From positions 1,302,001 through 1,366,000 of the forward strand of contig NZ_CP033878.1 in the NCBI RefSeq assembly GCF_009690625.1: a DNA stretch of 64,000 nt. Direction: 5' to 3'. The translations under genes and the position numbers were made by a program. The notes beneath the pieces were generated by a model that worked only from the letters and a program-made list of their open reading frames with translations, had not been told where the DNA came from and ran no database searches. This DNA is from Halorhabdus sp. CBA1104. Lineage in GTDB: Archaea > Halobacteriota > Halobacteria > Halobacteriales > Haloarculaceae. Below are positions 7,341 to 58,221 of the stretch, in pieces; the first letter of the stretch is position 1; every line of letters begins with the position of its first letter.

Positions 7341-9779
7341 ATGACTCCGCTCCCTTCGATCGACCACGAAGATATCGTCCGAGCGGTCGACAGAGAGATC
7401 GTCGACCACTCCGTCCGAGTCATCATCGTCTTCCTGCTGTTGAGTGGTATCTTCGCCGGCGGCATGGCGGGCGTGAGTATCGACGCCGGCACCCAGCGGT
7501 TCTTCGAGAGTGTCCCCGAGCATCACACCCAACAGTTCATCGACGACCAGTTCGGCGCGACGTTCGACGCGGGCGAGGACTCGACACAAGTCGTCGTCAG
7601 CGACGAGAACGTCTTCTCGAAGCGGGCCTTGCTCCGGATGCTCGAACTGCAAGAAGACCTCGAAGCCGATCCGTCGCTCCGGGTGGGCGACGTAACCGGA
7701 CTCGCCTCTGGGGTCGCCAGAGTCCTAGACCCGTTGGCGACGACGACAACAGCACAGCGGCAGGCGATCGAGACGGCAACGCCAACGGAGATTCGAGCGG
7801 CCAGCCACACGCTGCTCGATCGGCGGCCCCAGGTCGCCCAGCTACTGAGTGAAGACCAGAATCTGGCTGAGCCCCACGCCTCAGCGACGATCGTGCTCGT
7901 GTCACACGCGATTCCGGAGGGGGACGATTCGACCTTAGAGACCGTCCAAGAGCGGGTCAAGCAGGTCGCGGAGACGGGCCACGGCGACGTTCGTGTCTTC
8001 GGGACGGCGATCCAGGATGCTGGCTTCGATCGGGCGATCTTCGAGTCACTGTCGTTGATCGTCCCAATGGTGACCGTCCTGATTCTCGTGTTCCTGATCG
8101 TCGCCTATCGGGACCCGATCGATCTGGTGCTGGCGCTCGTGAGTCTATTGTTGGCTATCGTCTGGACGTTCGGCTTCATGGGCTATGCCGGAATCAGTTT
8201 CAACCTCATGATGGTCGCGGTCCCGGTCCTGTTGCTGGGCGTCGGGATCGACTTCGGGATCCACGCCGTCAACCGATATCGCGAGGAGCGAGTCGCCGGG
8301 AAGTCAGTCGAGGACAGTATGTCGATCGCCAACCGGCAGTTGCTGGTGGCTTTTTTCATCGTCTCGGTGACGAACGTCATCGGGTTCTCGGCGAACGTGA
8401 CGAGTGCCCTCGAACCCGTCCGGGAATTCGGGCTCGTCGTCGCGGTCGGGATGGTGTTTACGCTTGCCGTCTTCGGTGTCTTTCTGCCCGCGCTGAAGGT
8501 CGTCGTCGATCGCTGGCGGCACTCGAGGGGCATCAGACAGTTTTCGATCACGCCACTCGGTGGCGAGGAATCGCGGCTTGGCGACATCCTCCGATCGAGT
8601 GCAATCGTCGCCAAACGTCACCCGCTGATTCTGCTTGCGATCATCCTCCTGGTAACTGGAGCCGCCGCCCAGTCCGCGACGAACGTCGAATCGAAGTTCG
8701 AGACCGAGGACTTCCTGCCGTACGCCGATCACCCGCCACAGCTCGATGCGATTCCCGACCAGATTGCCCCCTCCGAGTTCGAAATCACGGCCACGTCGAA
8801 TTATATCACCGACACGTTCGAGACGACCAACACCGAACAGGTGACGTTGTACGTCGAGGGACCGCTACGGCGGGATCACGCCCTCGAAGCCGTCTCCCGC
8901 GTCGGCTCGGACCCACCGGACTCGTTCGTCCGCAAAGACGGCCACGCCGTTTCACAGAGCATCGTGGACGTCATGGAGAGGGCTGCCCGACAGGACAGGG
9001 AATTTGCGGACCTACTCGACCGCAACGACCTCTCGGAGAACGGCGTCCCCGATCGGAACCTCGATGCGATCTATCAGGCGTTGCTGTCCTCTGAGTACGG
9101 GGACCAGGCCCGCCAGTACCTGACCGCGGATCGCCGAGCGACGAAAGTCGTCTACCAGGTCCAAGCCAGCGCCAGCCAGAAGGAAGTCACCGAGGACGCG
9201 CGCACGCTCGCCGCCGACGCCCGGTTCGACGCCGTTGTGACGGGCGACATCATCGTCTTCCGGGCACTGACTGAGGCGCTGATGAGCTCTGCGATCATCA
9301 GTTTCGCCGTCGCGTTCTTGCTGACAGCGGCGTTCCTGGTCGTGATCTTCGGCCTGCTCGAAGGGCGGTGGTCGCTTGGGCTGGCGACGATGGCGCCGGT
9401 CACGGTCGCGATCGTGTTGCTAGTCGGGTCGATGCCCATCCTCGGCATCACGTTCAACGCGCTGACGGCGACGATCCTCGCGATCACGATCGGTCTCGGA
9501 GTGGCCTACGCCGTCCACGTCAGCCACCGGTTCATCGACGAATACGACGACAACGGGGACGTCCACGAATCGCTGCTCGTGACGCTCAGCGGGACTGGGG
9601 GCGGGATCACCGCGAGCATGCTGACGACCTCGGGAAGTGTCGTCTGTATGACCGTCGCCGTCAACCCGATTTTGGGGCAGTTCGGCCTGCTAACCGGTGT
9701 CAGTACGTTCCTCTCGTATCTGACGGCGGTGACGGTGTTGCCGCTGACGCTCCGTGGCTGGGCGCGCGTGTTCGGCTAG
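7341..9779 (+). CDS. RND/MMPL-superfamily membrane protein with sterol-sensing-like domain
   Basis: 812 residues in two homologous halves. Each half has one N-terminal membrane helix (about 26-48 and about 430-447), a large extracytoplasmic loop, then a cluster of five helices (about 235-390 and about 640-810). The helix clusters contain the RND/MMPL pattern, for example LLLGVGIDFGIHAVNRYREE and LGVAYAVHVSHRFIDEYDD. This superfamily uses the ion gradient to move lipids, drugs or other hydrophobic molecules; the substrate cannot be read here. It lies 34 bp behind the giant repeat protein, so the pair probably forms one surface-assembly or export operon. Confidence 0.85.
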   Translation: MTPLPSIDHEDIVRAVDREIVDHSVRVIIVFLLLSGIFAGGMAGVSIDAGTQRFFESVPEHHTQQFIDDQFGATFDAGEDSTQVVVSDENVFSKRALLRMLELQEDLEADPSLRVGDVTGLASGVARVLDPLATTTTAQRQAIETATPTEIRAASHTLLDRRPQVAQLLSEDQNLAEPHASATIVLVSHAIPEGDDSTLETVQERVKQVAETGHGDVRVFGTAIQDAGFDRAIFESLSLIVPMVTVLILVFLIVAYRDPIDLVLALVSLLLAIVWTFGFMGYAGISFNLMMVAVPVLLLGVGIDFGIHAVNRYREERVAGKSVEDSMSIANRQLLVAFFIVSVTNVIGFSANVTSALEPVREFGLVVAVGMVFTLAVFGVFLPALKVVVDRWRHSRGIRQFSITPLGGEESRLGDILRSSAIVAKRHPLILLAIILLVTGAAAQSATNVESKFETEDFLPYADHPPQLDAIPDQIAPSEFEITATSNYITDTFETTNTEQVTLYVEGPLRRDHALEAVSRVGSDPPDSFVRKDGHAVSQSIVDVMERAARQDREFADLLDRNDLSENGVPDRNLDAIYQALLSSEYGDQARQYLTADRRATKVVYQVQASASQKEVTEDARTLAADARFDAVVTGDIIVFRALTEALMSSAIISFAVAFLLTAAFLVVIFGLLEGRWSLGLATMAPVTVAIVLLVGSMPILGITFNALTATILAITIGLGVAYAVHVSHRFIDEYDDNGDVHESLLVTLSGTGGGITASMLTTSGSVVCMTVAVNPILGQFGLLTGVSTFLSYLTAVTVLPLTLRGWARVFG

Positions 9780-45814: not shown

Positions 45815-45926
45815 ACCATTTTTGTCGGGCCACGCGGAGTTAACCGTTCGGTCCGGCCAGACCGGTGCCGAAACCGACTGTCAGGAGAGCCAAACACGTA
45901 TAGATGCGGGCCACACAGTGACGGCC

Positions 45927-46517
45927 ATGCGTGGACTCGACGACACTGATCGAGAGATCCTTCACCTGTTGCTCGAAGACGCCCGGCGACCCTACAGCGA
46001 CATTGCCGAGCAAGTCGACCTCTCGGCCCCAGCCGTCTCCGATCGGGTCGATCGCCTCCGAGAGATGGGACTCATCGAGCGGTTTACCCTCGACGTCGAT
46101 CGATCGATGCTTCGAGAGGGCACCCCGGTACTGATCGAATTGACGCCCCAACCCGAGGCGACCGGCATCTCGGGGAACCTAGCTGGGGCCGCGGCCGTCG
46201 AACACGTCTTCCGGACGGCCGACGGGACAGTGTTGGTCGTCGCCCACGTCGACCGTCGCAACGTCCGGGGGTTCCTGGGCGAGCAACTCGATCTGACGGC
46301 GATCGACGCCATCGACGTCCGGATGCTCGCCGACAGCCAGTGGACGCCCCAGCTTGGTGCGGGCGAACTCGCGCCGGCCTGTGCCGAATGTGGGAATACG
46401 GTCACCAGCGAGGGAGAAACTGCGACACTTGACGGCGACGTCTATCACTTTTGCTGTCCCTCCTGTCAGAGCAAGTTCGTCGATCGCTACGAGGAACTGG
46501 CCGCCAGGGCGGAGTAA
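45927..46517 (+). CDS. AsnC/Lrp-type regulator with TRASH metal-binding domain (CopR-like)
   Basis: 196 residues. The N-terminal Lrp-type HTH (LDDTDREILHLLLEDARRPYSDIAEQ and SAPAVSDRVDRLREMGLI) is followed by a short RAM-like effector part and a C-terminal TRASH domain with Cys residues spaced C-x2-C (CAECGNT) and HFCCPSCQSKF. The TRASH motif binds copper or related soft metals. Related haloarchaeal proteins control a copper-exporting ATPase, and a CopA-type pump lies 1 kb downstream in the same direction. ATG 45927 begins MRGLDDTDREI. Confidence 0.88.
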   Translation: MRGLDDTDREILHLLLEDARRPYSDIAEQVDLSAPAVSDRVDRLREMGLIERFTLDVDRSMLREGTPVLIELTPQPEATGISGNLAGAAAVEHVFRTADGTVLVVAHVDRRNVRGFLGEQLDLTAIDAIDVRMLADSQWTPQLGAGELAPACAECGNTVTSEGETATLDGDVYHFCCPSCQSKFVDRYEELAARAE

Positions 46518-46569
46518 CGCGGCCGGACAGCGGCACCGTTAACGGGCCCCTCTTCGAAACCCCGGTACG

Positions 46570-46857
46570 ATGAGTTCGATCAAGCGACTCGTGCTGGACT
46601 TGCTGAAGCCAAACGACGTCGAAAACGTCACCTTCGCCCGCAAACTCGCCGGATTGGAGGGTGTCGACGGCGTAAACGTCTCGCTGCTGGAATCCGACAA
46701 GGAAGTCCAGAATCTCAAGATCACGATCGAGGGCCAGGATATCGACGAGACCACCGTCGCGGAGACGGTCGAACAGTTGAGTGGCACGATCCACTCTACC
46801 GACGAGGTGGCCTGCGGGAGCCGCCTCGTCGAGGAAAGCGAAACCCATCAGGACTAA
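46570..46857 (+). CDS. DUF211 protein
   Basis: 95 residues starting MSSIKRLVLDLLKPND. The sequence (VTFARKLAGLEGVDGVNVSLLESDKEVQNLKITIEGQ) has the ferredoxin-like beta-alpha-beta pattern of DUF211, a family of small archaeal proteins seen beside metal or redox genes. It precedes the VIT1-like gene by 2 bp. Function unknown; I infer a metal-related accessory role from the copper context. Confidence 0.8.
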   Translation: MSSIKRLVLDLLKPNDVENVTFARKLAGLEGVDGVNVSLLESDKEVQNLKITIEGQDIDETTVAETVEQLSGTIHSTDEVACGSRLVEESETHQD

Positions 46858-46859
46858 CC

Positions 46860-47438
46860 GTGTCTTCCAGACTCGCCACGCTCCGGGAACTGCTCGAAGA
46901 CGAGGACGTCCGGTCGATCTCCCGGCGGTACTTCATCTCCAACGGGTTCGACGGAACCTTGACCAGCATCGGCATCATCGTCGGCTCGTTCCTGGGCGGC
47001 AGCACCAATATGGAAGTCATCCGGATCGTCGCCGGCGGGACGGTCGGCCTGGCGGCCTCGGGCGTCTGGAGCGTCTGGGAGATCGAACGCGCCGAGAAAC
47101 TGGCCGAGCTCAAGCGCGTCGAGGCACAGATGCTCACCGACCTCGAAGAGACACGCCTGCACGATCACAAGGCCGACGCCCGGAAGGTCAACGCGGCCAT
47201 GAGCGGACTCGGCCCGACGATCGGGATGTTGTTGCCGATCGTGCCGTACTTCTTCGTCGGCGTCGCCCTCTCGATGCTGTGGGCGACGGTGATCGGTGTC
47301 CTCGTCGGCGTCGGGCTCCTGTTCGTCTTCGGGGCGTACATGGGCAATCTCTCGGAGCAAAACTGGGTAATCGCCGGCCTGCGGACGGGACTCGTTGGCC
47401 TCGTCGTCGGTGCGATCAATATCGGCCTCCCGGGATAG
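46860..47438 (+). CDS. VIT1/CCC1-like metal transporter
   Basis: 192 residues starting GTG 46860. It has an N-terminal soluble helix (RLATLRELLEDEDVRSIS) and four to five hydrophobic helices; the RRYFISNGFDGTLTSIGIIVGSFLGG segment is the pattern shared by VIT1/CCC1 vacuolar iron/manganese carriers. It lies between the TRASH regulator and the copper pump, 2 bp after DUF211. Transport of iron or manganese is the family's known role; a link with copper here is inference. Confidence 0.82.
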   Translation: MSSRLATLRELLEDEDVRSISRRYFISNGFDGTLTSIGIIVGSFLGGSTNMEVIRIVAGGTVGLAASGVWSVWEIERAEKLAELKRVEAQMLTDLEETRLHDHKADARKVNAAMSGLGPTIGMLLPIVPYFFVGVALSMLWATVIGVLVGVGLLFVFGAYMGNLSEQNWVIAGLRTGLVGLVVGAINIGLPG

Positions 47439-47544
47439 CCCGATTCTCACAGCTTTGGCGGTGTCCCCACTTTACATTCGAAATTCCATCCCCAGATAGT
47501 GGCGAGAATATGAGGGGAAAGCCGAATGAACGAGGAGACCCTAA

Positions 47545-50130
47545 ATGGAGACAATGACAGCCCGACGAACGACCAGACTGGAACTTTCGGGGTTGAGTTG
47601 TGCCAATTGCGCCGGCACCGTCGAGGAGCGGGTCGGCGAACTCGGGGGCGTCGAGTCAGTCGATGCGAACTTCGCCACCGAGGAGGGAACAGTGACCTAC
47701 GACGCCGAGGAGACGTCGTTGGCCGAGATTTACGACACCATCGACGAGGCGGGCTACGGGGCGGCCACAGAGACAGTGACAGTTGGTATCACGGACATGT
47801 CGTGTGCGAACTGTGCCGAGGCAAACGAGACGTCACTCGAAGACACGCCCGGTGTGATCGGGGCCGACGTCAACTACGCGACCGACGAGGCCCAGGTGCG
47901 CTACAACCCCGCCGACGCCTCGCTGGCCGACCTCTACGACGCCATCGAGGCTGCCGGGTACACGCCTATCGAGGAAGATGACGACGAGGACGTCTCCGAT
48001 CAGGAACGGCAGGACCTCGCCCGGACCGCCGAAATACGGCGACTCCGCCGGCTGACGCTGCTGGGTGGGGCGCTGTCGGTCCCGCTGCTGGTCATGCTCG
48101 TCGATCACGTCTTCGGGCTCGGGGTGCTTCCCGAATCGGTCGGGCCGGTCGGGACGCCCTGGATCGCGTTCGCGCTGGCGACGCCCGTCCAGGTGCTGTT
48201 GGGCAAGGAGTTCTACGAGAATTCCTACAACGCCCTGGTCAACAACCGGACGGCGAACATGGACGTCTTGATCGCGCTTGGCTCTTCGACGGCGTACCTC
48301 TACAGCGTCGCCCGTCTGCTCGGGTTCCCCGGCAGCGGCTACTACTTCGACACCGCGGCGCTGATCCTCGTGTTCATCACGCTGGGCAACTACCTCGAAG
48401 CGCGCTCGAAAGGCCAGGCGAGTGACGCGATCAGGGAGTTGCTCCAACTGGAGGCCGACACCGCGACGGTGATCCGCGAGGACGGAACGGAAGCAGAGAT
48501 TCCGCTCGAAGACGTCGCCGTCGGCGACCGGTTGAAGGTTCGACCCGGCGAGAAGATTCCGACCGACGGCGTGGTGGTGGATGGAACAAGTGCGGTCGAC
48601 GAGTCGATGGTCACCGGCGAGTCCGTGCCCGTCGAGAAAAGCGAGGGCGAGGAAGTGATCGGTTCGACGGTCAACGAGAACGGCGTCCTCGAAATCGAGG
48701 CCACCAGGGTCGGCGAGGAGACGGCGATCCAGCAGATCGTCACGCGCGTCAAGGAAGCCCAGTCCCGCCAGCCCGAGATCCAGAACGTCGCCGACCGGAT
48801 CAGCGCCGTCTTCGTCCCCGCCGTCATCGGCAACGCCGTGCTCTGGGGACTCCTGTGGTTCCTGTTCCCCGACGCGCTGGCCGGGTTCGTCGACGCGCTG
48901 CCGTTGTGGGGCCTGGCCGCTGGCGGGCCGACGGCAGTCGGGATCGGCGAGTTCGCCGTCGTCGTCTTCGCCTCGGCCGTGCTGATCGCCTGTCCCTGTG
49001 CGCTGGGGCTGGCGACGCCCGCAGCGACGATGGTCGGCACGACCATCGGTGCCCAAAACGGCGTCCTGTTCAAGGGCGGGGACGTCCTCGAACGCGTCCG
49101 TGACGTGGATACGGTGGTCTTCGACAAGACCGGGACGCTGACCGAAGGCGAGATGGAACTCACCGACGTGATCGCCCTCCCAGAGGCAGACCGAACCGCG
49201 GCGGACGGCGGGACGCTGGAAGCCGAGCAGAGCGTGACCGAATCGTTCGTCTTGGAAGCCGCTGCCAGCGCCGAGCGGGGGAGTGAACACCCACTCGCCC
49301 ACGCGATCGTCGCTGGCGCTCGCGAGCGCGGGCTCGAACCAGCCGAGCCCGACGAGTTCGAGAACGTGCCCGGCCACGGGGTGCGTGCCGAGACCGACCA
49401 CGGCGAGGTGCTGGTCGGCAACCGAAAGCTGATGGCCGACAACGGGATCGATCCCGAACCGGCCGCCAAAGCCATGGAACGGCTCGAATCGGCGGGCAAG
49501 ACGGCCATGCTGGTCGCCGTCGACGGGCGGCTGGTCGGGGTCGTCGCCGACGCGGATACAGTCAAAGACTCGGCGGCCGAGGCAGTGAGTGCGATTACGG
49601 ATCGTGGCACCGACGTCTGGATGATCACCGGCGACAACGAACGCACCGCACGCGCCGTCGCCGATCAGGTGGGGATCGACCCGGAGAACGTCAAGGCAGC
49701 GGTCCTGCCAGACGAGAAGGCCGACGCGATCGAGGAGATCCAGGCCGACGGCCGGCGCGCGATGATGGTCGGGGACGGCGTCAACGACGCCCCGGCACTG
49801 GCGGCGTCGTTCGTCGGGACGGCCATCGGCTCTGGCACCGACGTGGCCATCGAGGCCGCCGACGTGACGCTGATGCGTTCGGACCCGCTGGACGTTCTCA
49901 AAGCGATCAGAATTTCCGCGGGGACGCTCTCGAAGATCAAGCAGAACCTCTTCTGGGCACTGGGGTACAACACGGCGATGATCCCGCTTGCCTCTATCGG
50001 ACTGCTCCAGCCGGTGCTCGCGGCCGCGGCGATGGCGATCTCCAGCGTCTCGGTGCTGACGAACAGCCTACTCTTCCGCCGGTACGATCCCGAAGCTGAG
50101 TACAAGCTCCTGGGACTGTTCGGACGCTGA
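47545..50130 (+). CDS. copA: Copper-exporting P1B-type ATPase
   Basis: 861 residues. Two N-terminal heavy-metal domains each carry CANC: Cys19/Cys22 and Cys87/Cys90. Core motifs are the actuator [11 protein letters not shown], the TM metal-site CPC in [13 protein letters not shown], the phosphorylation [18 protein letters not shown] and the hinge [12 protein letters not shown]7/TM8 residues YN and MxISS near the C-terminus match the Cu(I)-type group. It pumps Cu(I) out of the cell. A purine-rich CGAGGAGAC lies about 6 bp before ATG 47545. It is downstream of the TRASH regulator, DUF211 and VIT1-like genes on one strand. Confidence 0.95.
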
Positions 50131-50384
50131 ATCCCGGGCTGCCGGCCTCGTTCACCACCAGTATTTTCACTTCGTACAAGTCTGCGCTATCGTTTGCGGG
50201 ACGACTTTTGTTGTGCTTACTTGTAAAGACCCCAAATTACAGGGACACTAGTTGATCCTATATACTGGCAAAAGAGACGAGTTGACGACTGTAGCAACGT
50301 GAGAGTTTCGGGAAATATTGTGGAGAGTTTGCAATACTTTGAAAACCCTTTTGTGGGCGCGGCTGATACCCACAATCGATACAC

Positions 50385-51578
50385 ATGGCCGACGTTGACT
50401 TCCCAGAACCGGACGTGCTGCCCGAGACGATCGAGCCTGCGACGTTGAAGACCCGGATCGACGACGGGGATGCCGTCACGATCCTCGACGTCCGAATGAG
50501 CGGTGAATACGACGAGTGGCACATCGATGGCGAGTCCGTCGAGACGACCAATGTGCCGTACTACGAGTTTCTGGACGAGGACATCGGCGAGGATGTCTTC
50601 GAATCGCTCCCCGAAGACGAGCAGATTACTGTGGTCTGTGCAAAGGGGAAAGCAAGCGAGTATATCGCCGGTGTATTAGCGAAAGAAGGCTACGACGCCG
50701 TCAACGTCGCCGACGGCATGAACGGCTGGGCGTCGATTTACGAGGCTGTCGAACTCGAGGGCTACGACGGAGCAGGGACCGTCTTCCAGTACCAGCGCCC
50801 CTCCAGTGGCTGTCTGGGCTATCTCGTCGTCGACGGCGACGAGGCGGCGGTGATCGATCCGTTGCGGGCGTTCACCGACCGTTATCTCGACGATGCCCAG
50901 GCTCACGACGCCGAGCTCGTCTACGCACTGGACACCCACGTCCACGCCGATCACGTCTCTGGGATTCGTGCCCTCGCCGAGGCAGGCGTCGAGGCTGTCC
51001 TGCCCGCCGCAGCGATCGACCGCGGCGTCGAAGACGCCGAGAAACTGACCGCCGGATCGGACGGCGACGTGTTCACCGTCGGCGACGTCGAGATCGAAGC
51101 GATCCACACCCCCGGCCACACGACCGGGATGACCTCCTACCTGGTGGGCGAGCGTCTGCTCGCGACCGGCGACGGCCTGTTCGTCGAGAGCGTCGCCCGC
51201 CCTGACCTGGAAGCCGGTGATGAAGGGGCCGAAGACGCCGCCAAGCAGCTCTACGAGACCCTTCAAGAGCGGATCTTGCCGCTTGCCGACGACGTGTTGA
51301 TCGCCGGTGGGCACACGAGCGAGGCCGCCGACACCGCCCCCGACGGCACCTACACGGCACCGCTTGGCGAGTTGCGCGAGGAAATGGACGCCCTCTCGAT
51401 GTCCGAGAGTGAGTTCGTCCAGGCGGTACTTGCTGATATGCCGCCCCGGCCGGCCAACTACGAGGCGATCATCGCAACCAACCTCGGCCAGAACGCAATC
51501 GACGACGCGGAAGCGTTCACACTCGAACTGGGGCCGAACAACTGTGCGGCCAGCCAGGACTCACTCGCCGGAGACTGA
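50385..51578 (+). CDS. Rhodanese-MBL fusion (persulfide-dioxygenase-like)
   Basis: 397 residues. N-terminal rhodanese domain (1-125) with DVRMSGEYDEWHIDG and the active-site Cys85 in VVCAKGKASEY. C-terminal metallo-beta-lactamase domain (about 135-330) with DTHVHADHVSG, HTPGHTTGMTSYLV, LATGDGLFVESV and a late His in GGHTSE, as in ETHE1-like persulfide dioxygenases. Fused order is rhodanese first, the reverse of many bacterial fusions. It should move sulfane sulfur and oxidise persulfide to sulfite. It heads a compact operon with YeeE/YedE and PiT genes (9-25 bp gaps). Confidence 0.88.
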   Translation: MADVDFPEPDVLPETIEPATLKTRIDDGDAVTILDVRMSGEYDEWHIDGESVETTNVPYYEFLDEDIGEDVFESLPEDEQITVVCAKGKASEYIAGVLAKEGYDAVNVADGMNGWASIYEAVELEGYDGAGTVFQYQRPSSGCLGYLVVDGDEAAVIDPLRAFTDRYLDDAQAHDAELVYALDTHVHADHVSGIRALAEAGVEAVLPAAAIDRGVEDAEKLTAGSDGDVFTVGDVEIEAIHTPGHTTGMTSYLVGERLLATGDGLFVESVARPDLEAGDEGAEDAAKQLYETLQERILPLADDVLIAGGHTSEAADTAPDGTYTAPLGELREEMDALSMSESEFVQAVLADMPPRPANYEAIIATNLGQNAIDDAEAFTLELGPNNCAASQDSLAGD

Positions 51579-51587
51579 TCGATCGAT

Positions 51588-52079
51588 ATGCTCCCAGACC
51601 CGATCGTGCTGTCGGTATTCGAGACGCTGTTTCCGGAAGGCATTGCCCGCTATGCTATCGGTGGCCTGTTCGTCGGGCTCGGTACCGCCGTCATCTACGC
51701 CGCGACGGCTATCGCTCCCGGCGCGAGTTCGTTCCTCGAATCGACGCTCACCTACGTCTCCGATCGATCGCGCTTCCAGCAGTATCGCGCCTCCCGTGAC
51801 TGGCGGATCGTCTTCACGCTGGGCATCGTTCTCGGGGCAGCCGTCTACGCCGCGATCTGGCAAGGAGAAGTCTGGACCACTGACGTCCAGTGGTGGCGAC
51901 TGCTGGCCGGCGGGATCCTCGTCGGCATCGGAACGCGGATCGGGAAGGGCTGTACGTCCGGGCACGGCGTCTGTGGTATCGGGTCGCGCTCGAAGACGTC
52001 TCTCGTCGGCGTCGTGAGCTTCCTGGCCGTCGCCATCGCGACAGCACAGATCGTCACGGCACTGGGGGTGAGCCCGTAA
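51588..52079 (+). CDS. YeeE/YedE half-protein 1 (sulfur-compound transport)
   Basis: 163 residues, four membrane spans. The motif GKGCTSGHGVCG has two Cys, the hallmark of the YeeE/YedE (TsuA-like) family that carries thiosulfate or other sulfur compounds. This half corresponds to the N-terminal part of full YeeE. Its stop overlaps the start of the second half by 1 bp (TAATG). Confidence 0.85.
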   Translation: MLPDPIVLSVFETLFPEGIARYAIGGLFVGLGTAVIYAATAIAPGASSFLESTLTYVSDRSRFQQYRASRDWRIVFTLGIVLGAAVYAAIWQGEVWTTDVQWWRLLAGGILVGIGTRIGKGCTSGHGVCGIGSRSKTSLVGVVSFLAVAIATAQIVTALGVSP

Positions 52080-52528
52080 TGGCTGGCTCGTCAGCGCCAG
52101 ACGGCGGCCGTCAGCCGCTGTTCATGCCGGTGATCCTGCTTGGCGGGTTGCTGTTCGGGTTCGGCCTCGCTGCCAGTCACATGGCCCGTCCAGAAGTCGT
52201 CTTGGACTTCCTCCAACTGGTCGATCTGGGCTTGCTATTCGTGATGTTCGGTGCGGCAGTCGTCTCGGGGCTGGCCTTCGCGATCATCCCACAGCTTCGT
52301 CAGCGTGCGCCGCTGACCGGTGACATCTACGAGCGCCGGCTGAAATCCTTCGATCGAAACGTGCTGATCGGCGGGGCCATCTTCGGCGTCGGCTGGGGCA
52401 TCTCCGGAGTCTGTCCCGGATCGGGGTATGCGAGCCTGGGGATCGGCAACTGGCCGATCTTGCTCGCAATCGGCGGAATGTTCCTCGGCGCGTACCTGCA
52501 GGGCATCTGGCGATCGTGGCCGAACTGA
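52079..52528 (+). CDS. YeeE/YedE half-protein 2
   Basis: 149 residues, four membrane spans, with the second Cys motif GVCPGSGYASLG of the family. ATG 52079 overlaps the preceding stop, so the two halves are translated together and should assemble as one channel. The family moves reduced sulfur; the neighbouring rhodanese-MBL protein would act on it. Confidence 0.85.
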   Translation: MAGSSAPDGGRQPLFMPVILLGGLLFGFGLAASHMARPEVVLDFLQLVDLGLLFVMFGAAVVSGLAFAIIPQLRQRAPLTGDIYERRLKSFDRNVLIGGAIFGVGWGISGVCPGSGYASLGIGNWPILLAIGGMFLGAYLQGIWRSWPN

Positions 52529-52553
52529 CCGCAGTCCCCCGTTCTCTCATTGT

Positions 52554-53726
52554 ATGGATCTAGCGACGATCGGCCTGTTCGCAATCGCAAGCGTGGCGAG
52601 TCTGTTCATGGCGTGGGTCATCGGGGCCGGTTCCAGCGGCGCAACGCCGTTTGCCCCAGCGGTCGGTGCCAACGCCATCTCGACGCTCCGGGCGGCACTG
52701 GTCGTCGGCGTGCTGGGCTTTCTGGGCGCGGTAACCCAGGGCGGGAACGTCTCCGAAGCCGTCGGGAGCGGGCTCGTCGAGGGCGTCTCGCTCCCGCCGA
52801 CGGGCGTCATCGCCGTCCTCTTGATCGGCGCGGGACTGATGGCGGTCGGCATCAAGACGGGCTACCCGATCGCGACGGCGTTCACCGTAACGGGGGCAGT
52901 GATCGGCGTCGGATTGGCCCTGGGTGGCGATCCAGCCTGGGGGAAGTACCGAGAGGTCGGGGCCGTGTGGTTGCTCACGCCGATCGGCGGCGGTGCAGTC
53001 GCGTTTGCCATCGCACGCACGCTTCCACGTCCCGACGTGCCCGAAGACGTGAGCGTCCCTACCCTCGCCGCCCTCGTCGGGGCTGTGGTGGTCACCCTGG
53101 AGTTTGCCCTTCTCGAAGGAATGGGCGGGACGGTCGCTGGGGTCGGCGGGCGCTTGCTACCGGTGAGTGACGGGCTGTCCGTCCCGCTGGTGACCGTGCT
53201 GGCGGGCGTCGGCAGTGCGGCCCTCGTCCGCTGGGATATCAGCCGGGACCTGACTGGCGGCCTCCGGCGCTTTCTCCTCGCGCTCGGATCGCTCGTGGCG
53301 TTCTCGGCGGGCGCGAGTCAGGTCGGCCTCGCGGTCGGTCCCCTGCTGCCGCTCTTTGCGGAGCAATCGACCGTCCCGACGGTCACATTGCTGCTTGGCG
53401 GCGGGTTCGGGATGCTGGTCGGCTCCTGGACCGGCGCACCGCGGATGATCACAGCCCTCTCCCAGGAGTACGCCTCACTGGGGCCACGGCGCTCGATTGC
53501 CACGCTCGTCCCCTCGTTCCTGATCGCTCAGATTGCAGTCTTGCTCGGCGTGCCAGTCTCGTTCAACGAGATTATCGTCAGCGGGATCGTCGGCAGTGGC
53601 CTGGCCGTCGGTGGGGCCGACGTCAGTCGACGGAAACTCCTCGTGACGGTGCTCGCGTGGATCGGGTCCCTCGGGTTGGCCCTTGGGCTTGGCTATGGCG
53701 TTGCAACGATTGGACCAGTTGGGTGA
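52554..53726 (+). CDS. PiT-family permease (phosphate or sulfate type)
   Basis: 390 residues with about ten membrane helices. The family motif around GAGSSGATPFAPAVGANAIST is near the N-terminus, and FSAGASQVGLAVGPLL plus TGAPRMITALSQEY in the second half. PiT members carry inorganic phosphate, and one branch (CysP) carries sulfate. Position directly after the rhodanese and YeeE/YedE genes favours a sulfur oxyanion, but the sequence alone does not decide it. Confidence 0.8.
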   Translation: MDLATIGLFAIASVASLFMAWVIGAGSSGATPFAPAVGANAISTLRAALVVGVLGFLGAVTQGGNVSEAVGSGLVEGVSLPPTGVIAVLLIGAGLMAVGIKTGYPIATAFTVTGAVIGVGLALGGDPAWGKYREVGAVWLLTPIGGGAVAFAIARTLPRPDVPEDVSVPTLAALVGAVVVTLEFALLEGMGGTVAGVGGRLLPVSDGLSVPLVTVLAGVGSAALVRWDISRDLTGGLRRFLLALGSLVAFSAGASQVGLAVGPLLPLFAEQSTVPTVTLLLGGGFGMLVGSWTGAPRMITALSQEYASLGPRRSIATLVPSFLIAQIAVLLGVPVSFNEIIVSGIVGSGLAVGGADVSRRKLLVTVLAWIGSLGLALGLGYGVATIGPVG

Positions 53727-55809: not shown

Positions 55810-56649
55810 TCAAGCCACGCGCTTTGGCGGGACGAGCAGCACGTTACCGTCGGCTTTGGCGACAATATCCTCGGAGACGCTGCCCAGCAGTAGTCGCCGC
55901 AGCCGACTGTGCCCCCGGGACCCGACGAGCGTCGTCGCCGGGTCGTGCTCGTCCTCGACGGCGAGAATCTCCTCGACGGGATCACCCTGCCGGACGTCGA
56001 GGTGGGTCTCGATATCCCAGGCCTCGAGTTGGGCTGTGAGTTCAGCGAGTTGGTCCCGGGGTTCCTCGTCGATGTCCGGATCCGCTGGCGTCTCGACGTG
56101 GACCAGCGTCGCCTCCTCGGTCGCGTGCCGGAGATACGAGAACGCCTCGAAAGCGTCCTGGGCGTTCTCGGAGAAATCAGTCGCATAGAGAATGCGCTGA
56201 AACAGATGTTCGGCGAGCACGTCCGGGTCGTCGGTTGCCCGCTGGATCCGGTTGACCAACAGTGGTGTCACCGACGTTCGTGCGAGGTTCCGGGCCGTCG
56301 AACCGATGAATCGGTTCTCCAGTGGACTCGACCCGCGCGAACCGACGATCGAAAGGCTCGCGCCGACCGACTCGGCGATCCCGTTGATGCGGCGATGGGG
56401 GGTCCCGCGGACGACGTGGGTTTCGACTCCGAATCCGGCGTTTTCGAAAGTGTCACGGTAGCGGTTCAGCGCTTGTCGGCGACGCTCCTCGAAGTCCATC
56501 CCCGGCATCCCGGAGTGGACGTTCGACGGGACGACCGTCACGAGGTGAAACTCCTCGATGCCGATCCGATCGAGACACTCCAGGCACGTCTCGTTGGCGA
56601 TCGTAGCCTCGCTCGCCGCAGAGAGATCTGTCGCGTAGACGGCCCTCAT
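55810..56649 (-). CDS. Tandem universal stress protein (UspA)
   Basis: 279 residues with two Usp domains. The first (1-140) ends with VGSRGSSPLENRFIGSTAR; the second (about 155-279) with VGSRGHSRLRRLLLGSVSE, the ATP-binding loop pattern G-x2-G-x9-G-S. An AT-rich minus-strand TATA-like region (56670-56677) sits about 25 bp before the ATG. Usp proteins bind ATP and support stress survival; the exact partner is unknown. It is divergent from the small membrane protein and TauE genes. Confidence 0.9.
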   Translation of the reverse strand: MRAVYATDLSAASEATIANETCLECLDRIGIEEFHLVTVVPSNVHSGMPGMDFEERRRQALNRYRDTFENAGFGVETHVVRGTPHRRINGIAESVGASLSIVGSRGSSPLENRFIGSTARNLARTSVTPLLVNRIQRATDDPDVLAEHLFQRILYATDFSENAQDAFEAFSYLRHATEEATLVHVETPADPDIDEEPRDQLAELTAQLEAWDIETHLDVRQGDPVEEILAVEDEHDPATTLVGSRGHSRLRRLLLGSVSEDIVAKADGNVLLVPPKRVA

Positions 56650-57030
56650 ACCGATCTGTAGCAGCCGGCGTTATAATATTGCTTCGATTGTCCAATACAA
56701 TAGTGAGCGGATCGAACAATCACGAAACGAACTCGTGTCACGAGTCAGGCAACCACCGGCGTACCGGTCTGACGCGCCCCACGTCAAAACGCACCTATAT
56801 TCGCCGTAAGTGCGGTATAATCCAGGTTTTTGGGTCTAAGTTTTGTTGACGAGAGGAAGGTTCGAACGCATATATAGATAACCTATGCAAATATCTACGT
56901 CAGTTACGTGGCAGATACACGTCTGTAATATTGTGTAGGCCGTTCAAAACGTTTTACCCACCCGTGGAATAAGGGGTATTGAAGAGGAAACCATGATCCG
57001 CACACGACTATCGACGACGGGGGGAGACAC
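56650..57030 (+). other. Divergent intergenic region between Usp and TauE genes
   Basis: 381 bp with no gene. It includes the Usp TATA-like element near 56670-56677 (minus), a 15-bp palindrome at 56731-56745, and an AT-rich CATATATAGATAA near 56868-56880 that could serve the rightward genes. No further structure is clear. Confidence 0.6.
56731..56745. promoter_or_regulatory. 15-bp odd palindrome in the Usp/TauE divergent region
   Basis: ACTCGTG and CACGAGT flank a single T, a perfect inverted repeat. It lies about 82 bp upstream of the Usp start and is a candidate operator for either direction. Confidence 0.55.
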
Positions 57031-57183: not shown

Positions 57184-58221
57184 ATGGAACTGTTCGGACT
57201 CGCCGCGAGCATGATCGGCCTGTTCGTCGGCTTTGGCTTCATGGTCGGCGTCCTGTTTGGCTTCTTCGGGATGGGCGGGTCGTTCCTCGTGACCCCCGCG
57301 TTGATGATCATGGGCTTCGAGACGACCACGGCCGTCGGGAGTGGGATGGCCTTCGTCTTCGGGACAGCCGTCATCGCGACGCTCAAACACCGGGACCTCG
57401 GCCAGGTGGACTACAAACTCGGCGGGTTGATGATCGTCGGTACCACTGCCGGCATCGAGGTCGGTCGGATCGGGCTGTACTTCCTGCAAGACCAGGGACT
57501 GGCCGAGCTTGTCGTCGGCGTGACGTACGTCGTCCTCCTGGGAGGCGTGGGACTCTTTGTCACGCGCAATGCGCTCAAAAACGACGGGGACGATGGCGGT
57601 GGCGATCACCACGACCCAGACGCGGAGATCGACCCCGACGCGATTCCGGATATTGCAAAGCAAATCCAATCCTACACCGTCCCGCCGATGCTGTCGATCA
57701 GTGGCGGGATCAGGGTCTCGCTGTGGATGATCCTCGGCGTCGCCTTCGCGACCGGCTTGCTCTCTGGGTTCCTCGGCGTCGGCGGTGGTTTCATCCGGAT
57801 GCCGGCAATGTTCTACCTGATCGGCGTGCCCGTCCCGATCGCCGTCGGGACCGACCTCTTCGAGATCGTCTTCTCGGGCGGCCTCGGATCCTTCCTCTAC
57901 GGGCTGGAAGGCGGCGTCGATCTCTCGATCGTCGCGCCGCTTTTGGCCGGGAGCGCACTCGGTGCCCGGATCGGTTCGACCGCGACCAGCCTCGTCGAGG
58001 AGAGCGAGATCAAGATCTACTTCGGGCTCATGTTGCTCGGCGGTGCGGTGGCCGTCGCGCTCCGCCAGCTCGGCAACGCCGTCGAAGTCGAGATCTTTCA
58101 GGTGATCAGTTTCGGGCTGATCATGCTCGCCGCCCTGGCTGTCGGGAGCGCCGTCATCTACAGTGCCGTGCGAGCGATCCGAGACGACACGAGAACGACT
58201 GAGGTCTCTCCGGCGGATTGA
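57184..58221 (+). CDS. TauE/SafE-family sulfite/organosulfonate exporter
   Basis: 345 residues in two similar halves of four helices each. Each half begins with a conserved glycine-rich stretch: FGFMVGVLFGFFGMGGSF (about 17-34) and FATGLLSGFLGVGGGFIRMP (second half). A hydrophilic Asp-rich loop (about 140-160, DDGGGDHHDPDAEID) separates them. The family exports sulfite, sulfolactate or taurine-derived anions. It follows the tiny membrane protein by 3 bp. Combined with the rhodanese-MBL operon 4 kb away, a sulfite-detoxification role is plausible. Confidence 0.88.
   Translation: MELFGLAASMIGLFVGFGFMVGVLFGFFGMGGSFLVTPALMIMGFETTTAVGSGMAFVFGTAVIATLKHRDLGQVDYKLGGLMIVGTTAGIEVGRIGLYFLQDQGLAELVVGVTYVVLLGGVGLFVTRNALKNDGDDGGGDHHDPDAEIDPDAIPDIAKQIQSYTVPPMLSISGGIRVSLWMILGVAFATGLLSGFLGVGGGFIRMPAMFYLIGVPVPIAVGTDLFEIVFSGGLGSFLYGLEGGVDLSIVAPLLAGSALGARIGSTATSLVEESEIKIYFGLMLLGGAVAVALRQLGNAVEVEIFQVISFGLIMLAALAVGSAVIYSAVRAIRDDTRTTEVSPAD

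Follow-up and report, generated by a model that had tools for sequence, protein, structure and literature searches.

In the 64,000-nucleotide (nt) stretch of the Halorhabdus sp. CBA1104 genome analyzed here (the window, positions 1302001-1366000 of a genome that forms a single contig of 2.63 Mb), four adjacent genes encode a rhodanese-metallo-β-lactamase fusion (RHOD-MBL), two halves of a YeeE/YedE-type transporter (YeeE-a and YeeE-b), and a carrier of the PiT family. With moderate confidence, we read them as a haloarchaeal operon for the oxidation of sulfane sulfur (persulfide), likely serving to detoxify sulfide, the PiT of which carries a sulfur oxyanion. This reading is built on the gene order and its conservation, on invariant residues, on the loss of the phosphate signature from the PiT, and on a common promoter element; from these observations, we infer all substrates and all directions of transport.

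Conservation of the four-gene operon

All four open reading frames (ORFs) are present on the plus strand, and Pfam agrees with the families that a first-pass annotation, made from the letters alone, had assigned to them (Table 1). That annotation had described a compact unit with gaps of 25 bp or less, and indeed the gaps RHOD-MBL/YeeE-a, YeeE-a/YeeE-b, and YeeE-b/PiT are 9, −1, and 25 nt. YeeE-b starts with the ATG at 52079 within the stop codon of YeeE-a (1-nt overlap), and the PiT starts with the ATG at 52554; the ORF start at 52428 is merely the first start codon after a stop.

Conservation was followed in 80 named haloarchaeal loci, chosen by PiT similarity as the best 80 of 549 confirmed ones; the closest named relative found in this way is Halorhabdus amylolytica (89% PiT identity). 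The order RHOD-MBL, YeeE-a, YeeE-b, PiT is intact in 71 of the 80 loci (68/73 of those with at least 3 kb upstream), and all 16 neighborhoods fetched around high-scoring PiT matches contain the four genes in the same order. Of the nine exceptions, four (L122, L149, L167, and L187) are located where a contig ends, and five (L113, L140, L142, L146, and L165) are uncut. The PiT is next to RHOD-MBL, with no YeeE between them, in L113, L140, and L149 (in L149, RHOD-MBL immediately precedes the PiT and is cut by the contig end), and it adjoins TusA-DsrE2 in L165, where both RHOD-MBL and the YeeE pair are missing. The gap between YeeE-b and PiT is kept short (median, 23.5 nt; range, 7 to 156; 72 loci). 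For the comparison across 145 genomes of the class (G000-G144), a PiT was called operon type at E < 1e-130 and a TauE close at E ≤ 1e-119; both thresholds were set after the lists had been viewed, with G078 and G124 borderline inside and G068 just outside. Among the places listed, 57 of 60 operon-type PiT genes lie at most 300 bp from YeeE-b. Because of this proximity and the order intact in so many loci, the arrangement is not due to chance.

YeeE-b is found in 133 of the 145 genomes and an operon-type PiT in 64, none of which belongs to the 12 genomes that lack YeeE-b (Fisher P = 0.0012, with relatedness ignored). Twenty further YeeE-b loci were expected to be free of PiT, and one of them (L211) has an operon-type PiT; in the remaining 19, the fourth position is either vacant or occupied by other genes, and RHOD-MBL stands directly before the pair in 17. 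The PiT is a frequent, optional addition to the operon. Further sulfur genes accompany it: in the 68 loci that extend for 6 kb to either side, the operon has DsrE2 in its vicinity in 62, TusA in 59, TauE in 40, a cysteine-bearing helix-turn-helix (HTH) protein in 31, a double universal stress protein (Usp) in 28, and SQR in 21. In the window, in L040 to L042, and in L109, the operon has neither TusA nor DsrE2 next to it. A close TauE is present in 54/64 genomes with an operon-type PiT versus 21/81 without one, and a TauE match lies no more than 5 kb from 41 of the 60 listed PiT places (weaker TauE matches counted too).

Copies on plasmids are common, with matches in 68 plasmid records, 48 of which show 60 to 80% identity; plasmids of Halobacterium salinarum and Haloarcula are among the matches. 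Annotated plasmid records name these genes "inorganic phosphate transporter" and "MBL fold metallo-hydrolase." On pNRC100 of H. salinarum (L058), the operon adjoins genes for cytochrome bd and for another rhodanese-MBL fusion, which is accompanied by an MFS carrier.

RHOD-MBL and the YeeE pair

The first-pass annotation had called the fusion persulfide oxidizing. Its resemblance to persulfide dioxygenases is borne out by the 15 matches of a PDB sequence search, which include the MBL-rhodanese proteins 3tp9 and 3r2u, ETHE1 (4chl), and BpPRF, and dioxygenase activity is likely. RHOD-MBL has the HxHxDH, distal His, and Asp pattern of metal ligands of the MBL/ETHE1-type persulfide dioxygenases. 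The rhodanese Cys85 and, in the MBL domain, His185, His187, Asp189, His190, His245, Asp263, and Arg272 are invariant in all 74 aligned sequences.

Judged by the ranges covered on the Sulf_transp profile (with YeeE-b below the cut-off), YeeE-a corresponds to the C-terminal half of YeeE and YeeE-b to the N-terminal half. YeeE-a weakly matches the C-half of TsuA in 6leo/8j4c (PDB sequence search, E = 0.02 to 0.03), and the same search gave no relevant match for YeeE-b. Cys122 and Cys129 of YeeE-a and Cys112 of YeeE-b are invariant in 73/73 aligned sequences. Hence, what had been described as a split YeeE/YedE corresponds, in its halves and cysteines, to PmpA/PmpB (YedE1E2), i.e., two short YeeE-half proteins, each with an essential cysteine (PMC11582611). 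The YedE1E2 pair of Cupriavidus imports zero-valent sulfur for a persulfide dioxygenase (PDO) and requires both cysteines (PMC10812762), and Acinetobacter has a yeeE-yedE-pdo2 operon (PMC7315123). Given these halves and cysteines and the bacterial partnership with PDO, the first three genes look, by analogy, like an archaeal form of the known PDO/YedE1E2 (PmpAB) module.

The PiT carrier

Membership of the fourth protein in the PiT family (PF01384) is clear, with 150.5 bits on PHO4 against a cut-off of 33.7. It matches the Thermotoga carrier TmPiT (6l85) by sequence and by fold (TM-score, 0.74; Foldseek E = 2.4e-11), the fold match being based on an AlphaFold model of modest confidence (predicted local distance difference test [pLDDT], 71; the other four models, 44 to 53). 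The pLDDT falls below 50 at residues 25 to 54, the site of the first signature, and therefore no binding site was read from the model. In the alignment, the Thermotoga motifs GANDVANSM, GYPVSTTH, GANDVANA, and GLPISTTH correspond to GAGSSGATPF, GYPIATAF, GASQVGLA, and GVPVSFNE in the operon PiT; the GANDVANA signature with its aspartates is present in neither half. The altered motifs are nearly fixed across 81 aligned operon PiTs, all of which lack the aspartates in both halves (one sequence is gapped in the first half). A comparison from 2018 holds these aspartates essential for phosphate transport and reports their replacement in CysP (PMC5840216).

The first-pass annotation had suggested that the carrier be placed by phylogeny against CysP and the phosphate carriers; it groups with neither. 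The operon PiTs form a haloarchaeal clade of their own (99/99) that adjoins the paralogues of type p37 (97/97; joint branch, 88/50) and stands well apart from E. coli PitA, Thermotoga PiT, and CysP, although long branches make the deep joins unsafe. CysP of Bacillus subtilis, the sequence of which was entered by hand, joins the p36/p38 paralogues (97/89), again over long branches, and the operon PiT scores 61.3 bits on the CysP model NF053884 (cut-off, 400). The idea that the PiT is a CysP orthologue was rejected because of the model score and the tree.

A profile of the operon clade, run against 294 genomes of the phylum, finds strong matches within the class, with one metagenome-assembled genome (MAG; G417, E = 6.3e-141) as the sole exception; the next match beyond the class has an E value of 5.2e-48, and the remaining ones are at 2e-20 or weaker. 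In the MAG (locus L189), the PiT (50% identity) has TusA, DsrE2, a DUF5828 protein, and Usp as neighbors, a mix of those seen at p37 loci and at operon loci, and no RHOD-MBL or YeeE gene was called within 16 kb. This one genome hints that the sulfur link of the PiT may be older than the duplication. Around p37 itself, no conserved phosphate or sulfur context was seen in nine neighborhoods, whose genes, apart from DUF5828, were labeled solely by their likeness to a limited set of window and sulfur proteins. In one of the nine loci (L092), a rhodanese-MBL-like gene (8598-9716; 37% identity) lies two genes from the p37-type PiT.

A common promoter element

Comparison of the regions upstream of RHOD-MBL revealed an element of the form gTATTGt-N9-gGAAaTACTA, followed by the TATA-like CAAACcCTTttGTG. 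A 24-nt weight matrix was built from 75 such regions; the element starts at −69 from the ATG in 60 of them, and one does not fit. A strict form, ATTGTG-N7..11-CAATACT, occurs a single time in the whole genome. We take the block 3′ of the element to be a putative TATA box and the element itself a putative operator. A scan for bacterial-type promoters found none, and a repeat finder returned two short direct repeats and no inverted repeat from the upstream region.

In 98 loci (1.77 Mb), the matrix finds 184 sites of at least 16 bits, compared to none in the reversed sequences. RHOD-MBL and TusA account for 116 of them (many being training data), Usp for 9, thioredoxin-like genes for 10, TauE for 5, HTH for 4, and a CopA-like gene for 1; 24 lie at unlabeled genes, among which are, by likeness, a CoA-disulfide-reductase-like flavoprotein and a class-V aminotransferase-like protein, and 15 lie elsewhere. 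Counted per gene, the element is found within 200 nt of the start in 82/89 RHOD-MBL, 10/51 thioredoxin-like, and 8/39 Usp2-labeled genes. A first strict pattern, TATTG-N9..14-AATAC, was present in 28 of 71 RHOD-MBL and 57 of 64 TusA upstream regions and in none of those of TauE (47), HTH (46), PiT (78), and SQR (24). The RHOD-MBL/TusA promoter is the regular seat of the element; its other places are occasional.

The element also precedes PiT genes that stand without their usual company. It lies about 200 nt before a PiT without RHOD-MBL and the YeeE pair in L146 (30.7 bits), about 210 nt before another in L142 (15.4 bits), and between TusA and PiT in L165 (25.0 bits), and all three loci are outside the training set of the matrix. 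In 24 neighborhoods of paralogous PiTs (324 kb), no site reaches 16 bits, the best one having 14.1. Because of this difference, the PiT appears to belong to the sulfur set on its own account and not to be a passenger. Its placement in a sulfur setting, already proposed from the gene neighborhood, is now tied by gene order, co-occurrence, and the common element.

In the stretches of the own genome that were scanned (165 kb in total, about 149 kb without overlaps), four sites score at least 16 bits: those of the operon (26.2), Usp (17.0), an SQR-TusA-DsrE operon (16.9), and an SLAC1/TDT carrier gene (17.6). A matrix with permuted columns finds 0.05 sites on average and at most 1 in the same stretches; two of them (L191 and L219) had been fetched for their sulfur and regulator genes before the scan, so that the four sites are not a random sample. 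The copy upstream of Usp recurs at the same place in relatives (L040, 17.6 bits; L041, 17.0; L109, 14.1; L042, 12.5).

Elsewhere in the own genome, one operon (L191, 5138-6925) encodes an SQR-like flavoprotein together with TusA and DsrE-like proteins, and the element lies about 37 nt before its first gene. The gene for an SLAC1/TDT anion carrier (L219, 2052-3152) is closely preceded by the element and neighbored by a TrmB-like gene; the carrier is a possible second sulfite exporter. The TrmB/Sta1-like HTH protein contains a Cys-x5-Cys pair (CEGLLEC) that is invariant in 56/56 sequences. Its gene in the own genome (L218, 1288620-1288979) lies outside the window beside a thioredoxin gene, is 73% identical over 120 residues, and has no promoter element at its own start. 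Going by proximity, we would guess that this protein is a candidate regulator and persulfide sensor that binds the element.

A model for the operon and its alternatives

In our model, the YeeE pair, being of the PmpA/PmpB type, would take in zero-valent sulfur, which could also be made from sulfide by the SQR that is encoded elsewhere behind the same element. The rhodanese domain, with TusA and DsrE2 as helpers in other genera, may transfer this sulfane sulfur to a small thiol, and the MBL domain would oxidize the resulting persulfide to sulfite. Sulfite may then be released by TauE and perhaps also by the SLAC1-type carrier. The recruited PiT would carry a sulfur oxyanion, with import of thiosulfate as the first choice, since thiosulfate is the natural sulfur donor of rhodanese, and sulfite or sulfate next. 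We know of no thiosulfate or sulfite carrier in the PiT family so far. A narrower version of the model is offered as a tentative proposal: the PiT might be a thiosulfate (or sulfite) carrier within a sulfane-sulfur regulon that is set by the new 24-nt operator and read by the TrmB/Sta1-like protein acting as a persulfide-sensing repressor.

Several observations weigh against the model. About half of the genomes with YeeE-b have no operon-type PiT, TauE is absent within 6 kb in 28/68 loci, and the genomes are related, so that Fisher values overstate significance. The element is found within 200 nt of the start in 5/62 TauE, 4/56 HTH, and 0/26 SQR genes, SQR usually not being the first gene of its operon. 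The GAND aspartate is absent from both halves not only in the operon PiT but in all five PiTs of the own genome and in 25 aligned paralogues of six other haloarchaea (an alignment that left out three further PF01384 places and in which the third motif of E. coli PitA is clearly out of register). The nearest own paralogue, p37 (L037, 57%), has nearly the same signature outside of such an operon, and the four own paralogues score 67, 52, 136, and 138 bits on the CysP model, three of them more than the operon PiT. A PAPS-reductase-like gene in the own genome (66.9 bits) leaves room for sulfate uptake. Signature loss had been considered as proof of a sulfur substrate and was dropped, since every aligned haloarchaeal PiT has lost the signature. 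The substrate of the PiT cannot be named from sequence alone; the promoter element provides the stronger evidence.

The enzymatic part of the model has its own competitor, which we consider improbable: the MBL domain could be a thioester hydrolase of the glyoxalase II type and the operon could serve aldehyde/thiol chemistry instead of persulfide oxidation. The top NCBIfam model for RHOD-MBL is the hydroxyacylglutathione hydrolase GloB (55 bits, below the cut-off of 200.8), and 4 of the 15 PDB matches are named hydroxyacylglutathione hydrolase or glyoxalase II, but MBL-rhodanese proteins are among those ranked higher. Glyoxalase II and persulfide dioxygenases have a common pattern of metal ligands. 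Because the ligands do not discriminate, the dioxygenase reading rests more on the fusion to a rhodanese, whose Cys is kept in 74/74 sequences, and on the neighbors, namely, the YeeE pair, TusA, DsrE2, TauE, and SQR.

As to the carrier, it is imaginable that the PiT imports sulfate for assimilation or sulfation, like CysP of B. subtilis, and that it is found in the operon since sulfur supply and detoxification are linked. In CysP, likewise a PiT, other residues take the place of the aspartates in both signatures (PMC5840216; CysP sequence as aligned), and the PAPS-reductase-like gene would fit; however, the low score on the CysP model and the position of CysP elsewhere in the tree (with its long branches) make us doubt this. 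An element common to the SQR operon and the predicted dioxygenase also suits detoxification better than starvation. Furthermore, the habitats of halophiles are usually rich in sulfate. Equally doubtful to us is export of a product (sulfite, thiosulfate, or sulfate) by the PiT, alongside or instead of TauE. The PiT adjoins RHOD-MBL even in loci without YeeE and many loci have no TauE nearby, as export would have it, but PiT and TauE co-occur rather than alternate, for which reason the PiT as a mere TauE substitute was not favored, and members of the PiT family are reported to work by symport with H+ or Na+ (PMC5840216). With still less conviction, one might keep the PiT as a carrier of phosphate (or arsenate) with an unusual site, caught in a sulfur operon perhaps via a phosphate demand under sulfide stress. 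Family membership, fold, and the annotation of the plasmid copies agree with this, but the aspartates called essential (PMC5840216) are missing, and the PiT is kept beside RHOD-MBL, TusA/DsrE2, or the element where the rest is gone. Moreover, the own genome has a PhoU gene beside a PBP/permease (Pst-like) set and a second such set; these sets presumably carry phosphate, and because of them and PhoU, phosphate is unlikely to be the main cargo. Finally, an ancestral cluster could have spread on plasmids with the PiT carried along without a common function. The many plasmid copies and the optional presence of the PiT are compatible with such hitchhiking, which nevertheless seems improbable in view of the fixed position of the PiT, the short gaps, and the element retained before it where other genes are missing.

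Neighboring genes in the window

The first-pass annotation had let the sulfite exporter at 57184 complete a route from persulfide to exported sulfite. TauE is indeed there and travels with the PiT, but it starts 3,457 nt past the end of the PiT, with PAS/kinase-like and Usp genes on the opposite strand between them, and because of this distance and these two genes, it is not part of the operon transcript. Common control of TauE with the operon is only weakly backed because the element is so rare (5/62) near TauE genes. In Halobellus rufus (L142, 11045-12075), gene calling split TauE into two overlapping ORFs.

Directly upstream of the operon (45918-50130) lie genes for an Lrp/AsnC-type regulator with a TRASH domain, DUF211, a VIT-like protein, and a copper-type P-ATPase, a cluster that is partly kept in locus L040. 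No ArsR-type BigR repressor was found among the ten window proteins scanned with Pfam (the PAS/kinase-like and photolyase-like genes being outside the scan); the AsnC/TRASH protein barely touches HTH_5. PADLOC assigned no defense family.

Table 1. Features of the operon and its surroundings (window coordinates)
Feature	Position	Strand	Evidence
Rhodanese-MBL fusion (RHOD-MBL), 397 amino acids (aa); predicted sulfurtransferase/persulfide dioxygenase	50385-51578	+	Pfam Rhodanese, 42.4 bits, and Lactamase_B, 50.4 bits; PDB sequence matches
YeeE-a, PmpA/YedE1-like half, 163 aa	51588-52079	+	Sulf_transp, 44.3 bits, profile 174-306
YeeE-b, PmpB/YedE2-like half, 149 aa	52079-52528	+	DUF6691, 67.2 bits; Sulf_transp, 21.8 bits (below cut-off), profile 55-111
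PiT-family carrier, 390 aa, signature altered in both halves; predicted sulfur-oxyanion carrier	52554-53726	+	PHO4, 150.5 bits
Near-palindromic promoter element TATTGTGGAGAGTTTGCAATACTT, start 69 nt 5′ of the first ATG	50316-50339	+	Weight matrix, 26.2 bits
TATA-like block AAAACCCTTTTGTG, 3′ of the near-palindromic element	50342-50355	+	Matrix columns 26-39, many nearly invariant
Double universal stress protein (Usp), regulon candidate	55810-56649	-	Pfam Usp, twice; promoter element 24 nt upstream
Second copy of the promoter element, 5′ of Usp, 486 nt before TauE	56674-56697	-	17.0 bits; outside training set
TauE/SafE family protein; may export sulfite in the same pathway	57184-58221	+	139.3 bits

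Comparison with known systems

Titles and beginnings of abstracts in the open-access literature yielded no description of the haloarchaeal operon, its PiT, or its promoter element, and no description of haloarchaeal sulfide detoxification was found in the literature searched. Two papers on haloarchaeal sulfur respiration mention a rhodanese with polysulfide reductase, and in the excerpts seen, YeeE, a sulfite exporter, a phosphate transporter, persulfide, and TusA are not mentioned (PMC6176080 and PMC5437934). If our model is right, one element unites a predicted dioxygenase, a sulfur importer, and sulfur carriers and, in the own genome, also an SQR operon and an anion carrier, and a carrier that 64 of the 145 sampled genomes possess would receive a corrected annotation. 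H. salinarum and Haloarcula carry the operon on plasmids, which makes the question of the PiT substrate directly testable.

The closest parallels are bacterial. In yeeE-yedE-pdo2 of Acinetobacter and Serratia and in CpYedE1E2 with its PDO, a persulfide dioxygenase is likewise accompanied by two short YeeE halves, each of which has an essential cysteine, and in Acinetobacter, TauE, SQR, and cytochrome bd are also induced by sulfide (PMC7315123 and PMC10812762). In contrast, the operon described here is archaeal, has an N-terminal rhodanese fused to the MBL domain and a PiT as the fourth gene, and has the promoter element and the TrmB/Sta1-like cysteine protein as a candidate regulator in place of BigR/FisR. 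The bigR operon with Blh in Xylella and Agrobacterium likewise contains a sulfurtransferase-dioxygenase fusion with the same domain order and a sulfite exporter of the TauE kind; a PiT is not mentioned in the excerpt of its description (PMC5823870). Blh has a DUF442 domain, whereas RHOD-MBL has a Pfam rhodanese domain and reaches 43.8 bits on the Blh equivalog model NF040641, far below the cut-off of 625. In CstB of the staphylococcal cst operon, an MBL domain is likewise joined to rhodanese, and 3r2u, which we take to be CstB, is with 3tp9 among the best PDB matches of RHOD-MBL; in CstB, however, rhodanese follows the MBL domain, whereas here a single rhodanese precedes it. The sulfate permease CysP of B. 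subtilis also belongs to the PiT family and lacks the two aspartates (PMC5840216), but its replacement residues differ from those of the operon PiT, and the two are not closely related in sequence or tree. In sum, the dioxygenase-PmpAB core is known from bacteria, and the archaeal operon with its PiT and promoter element appears new relative to the literature searched.

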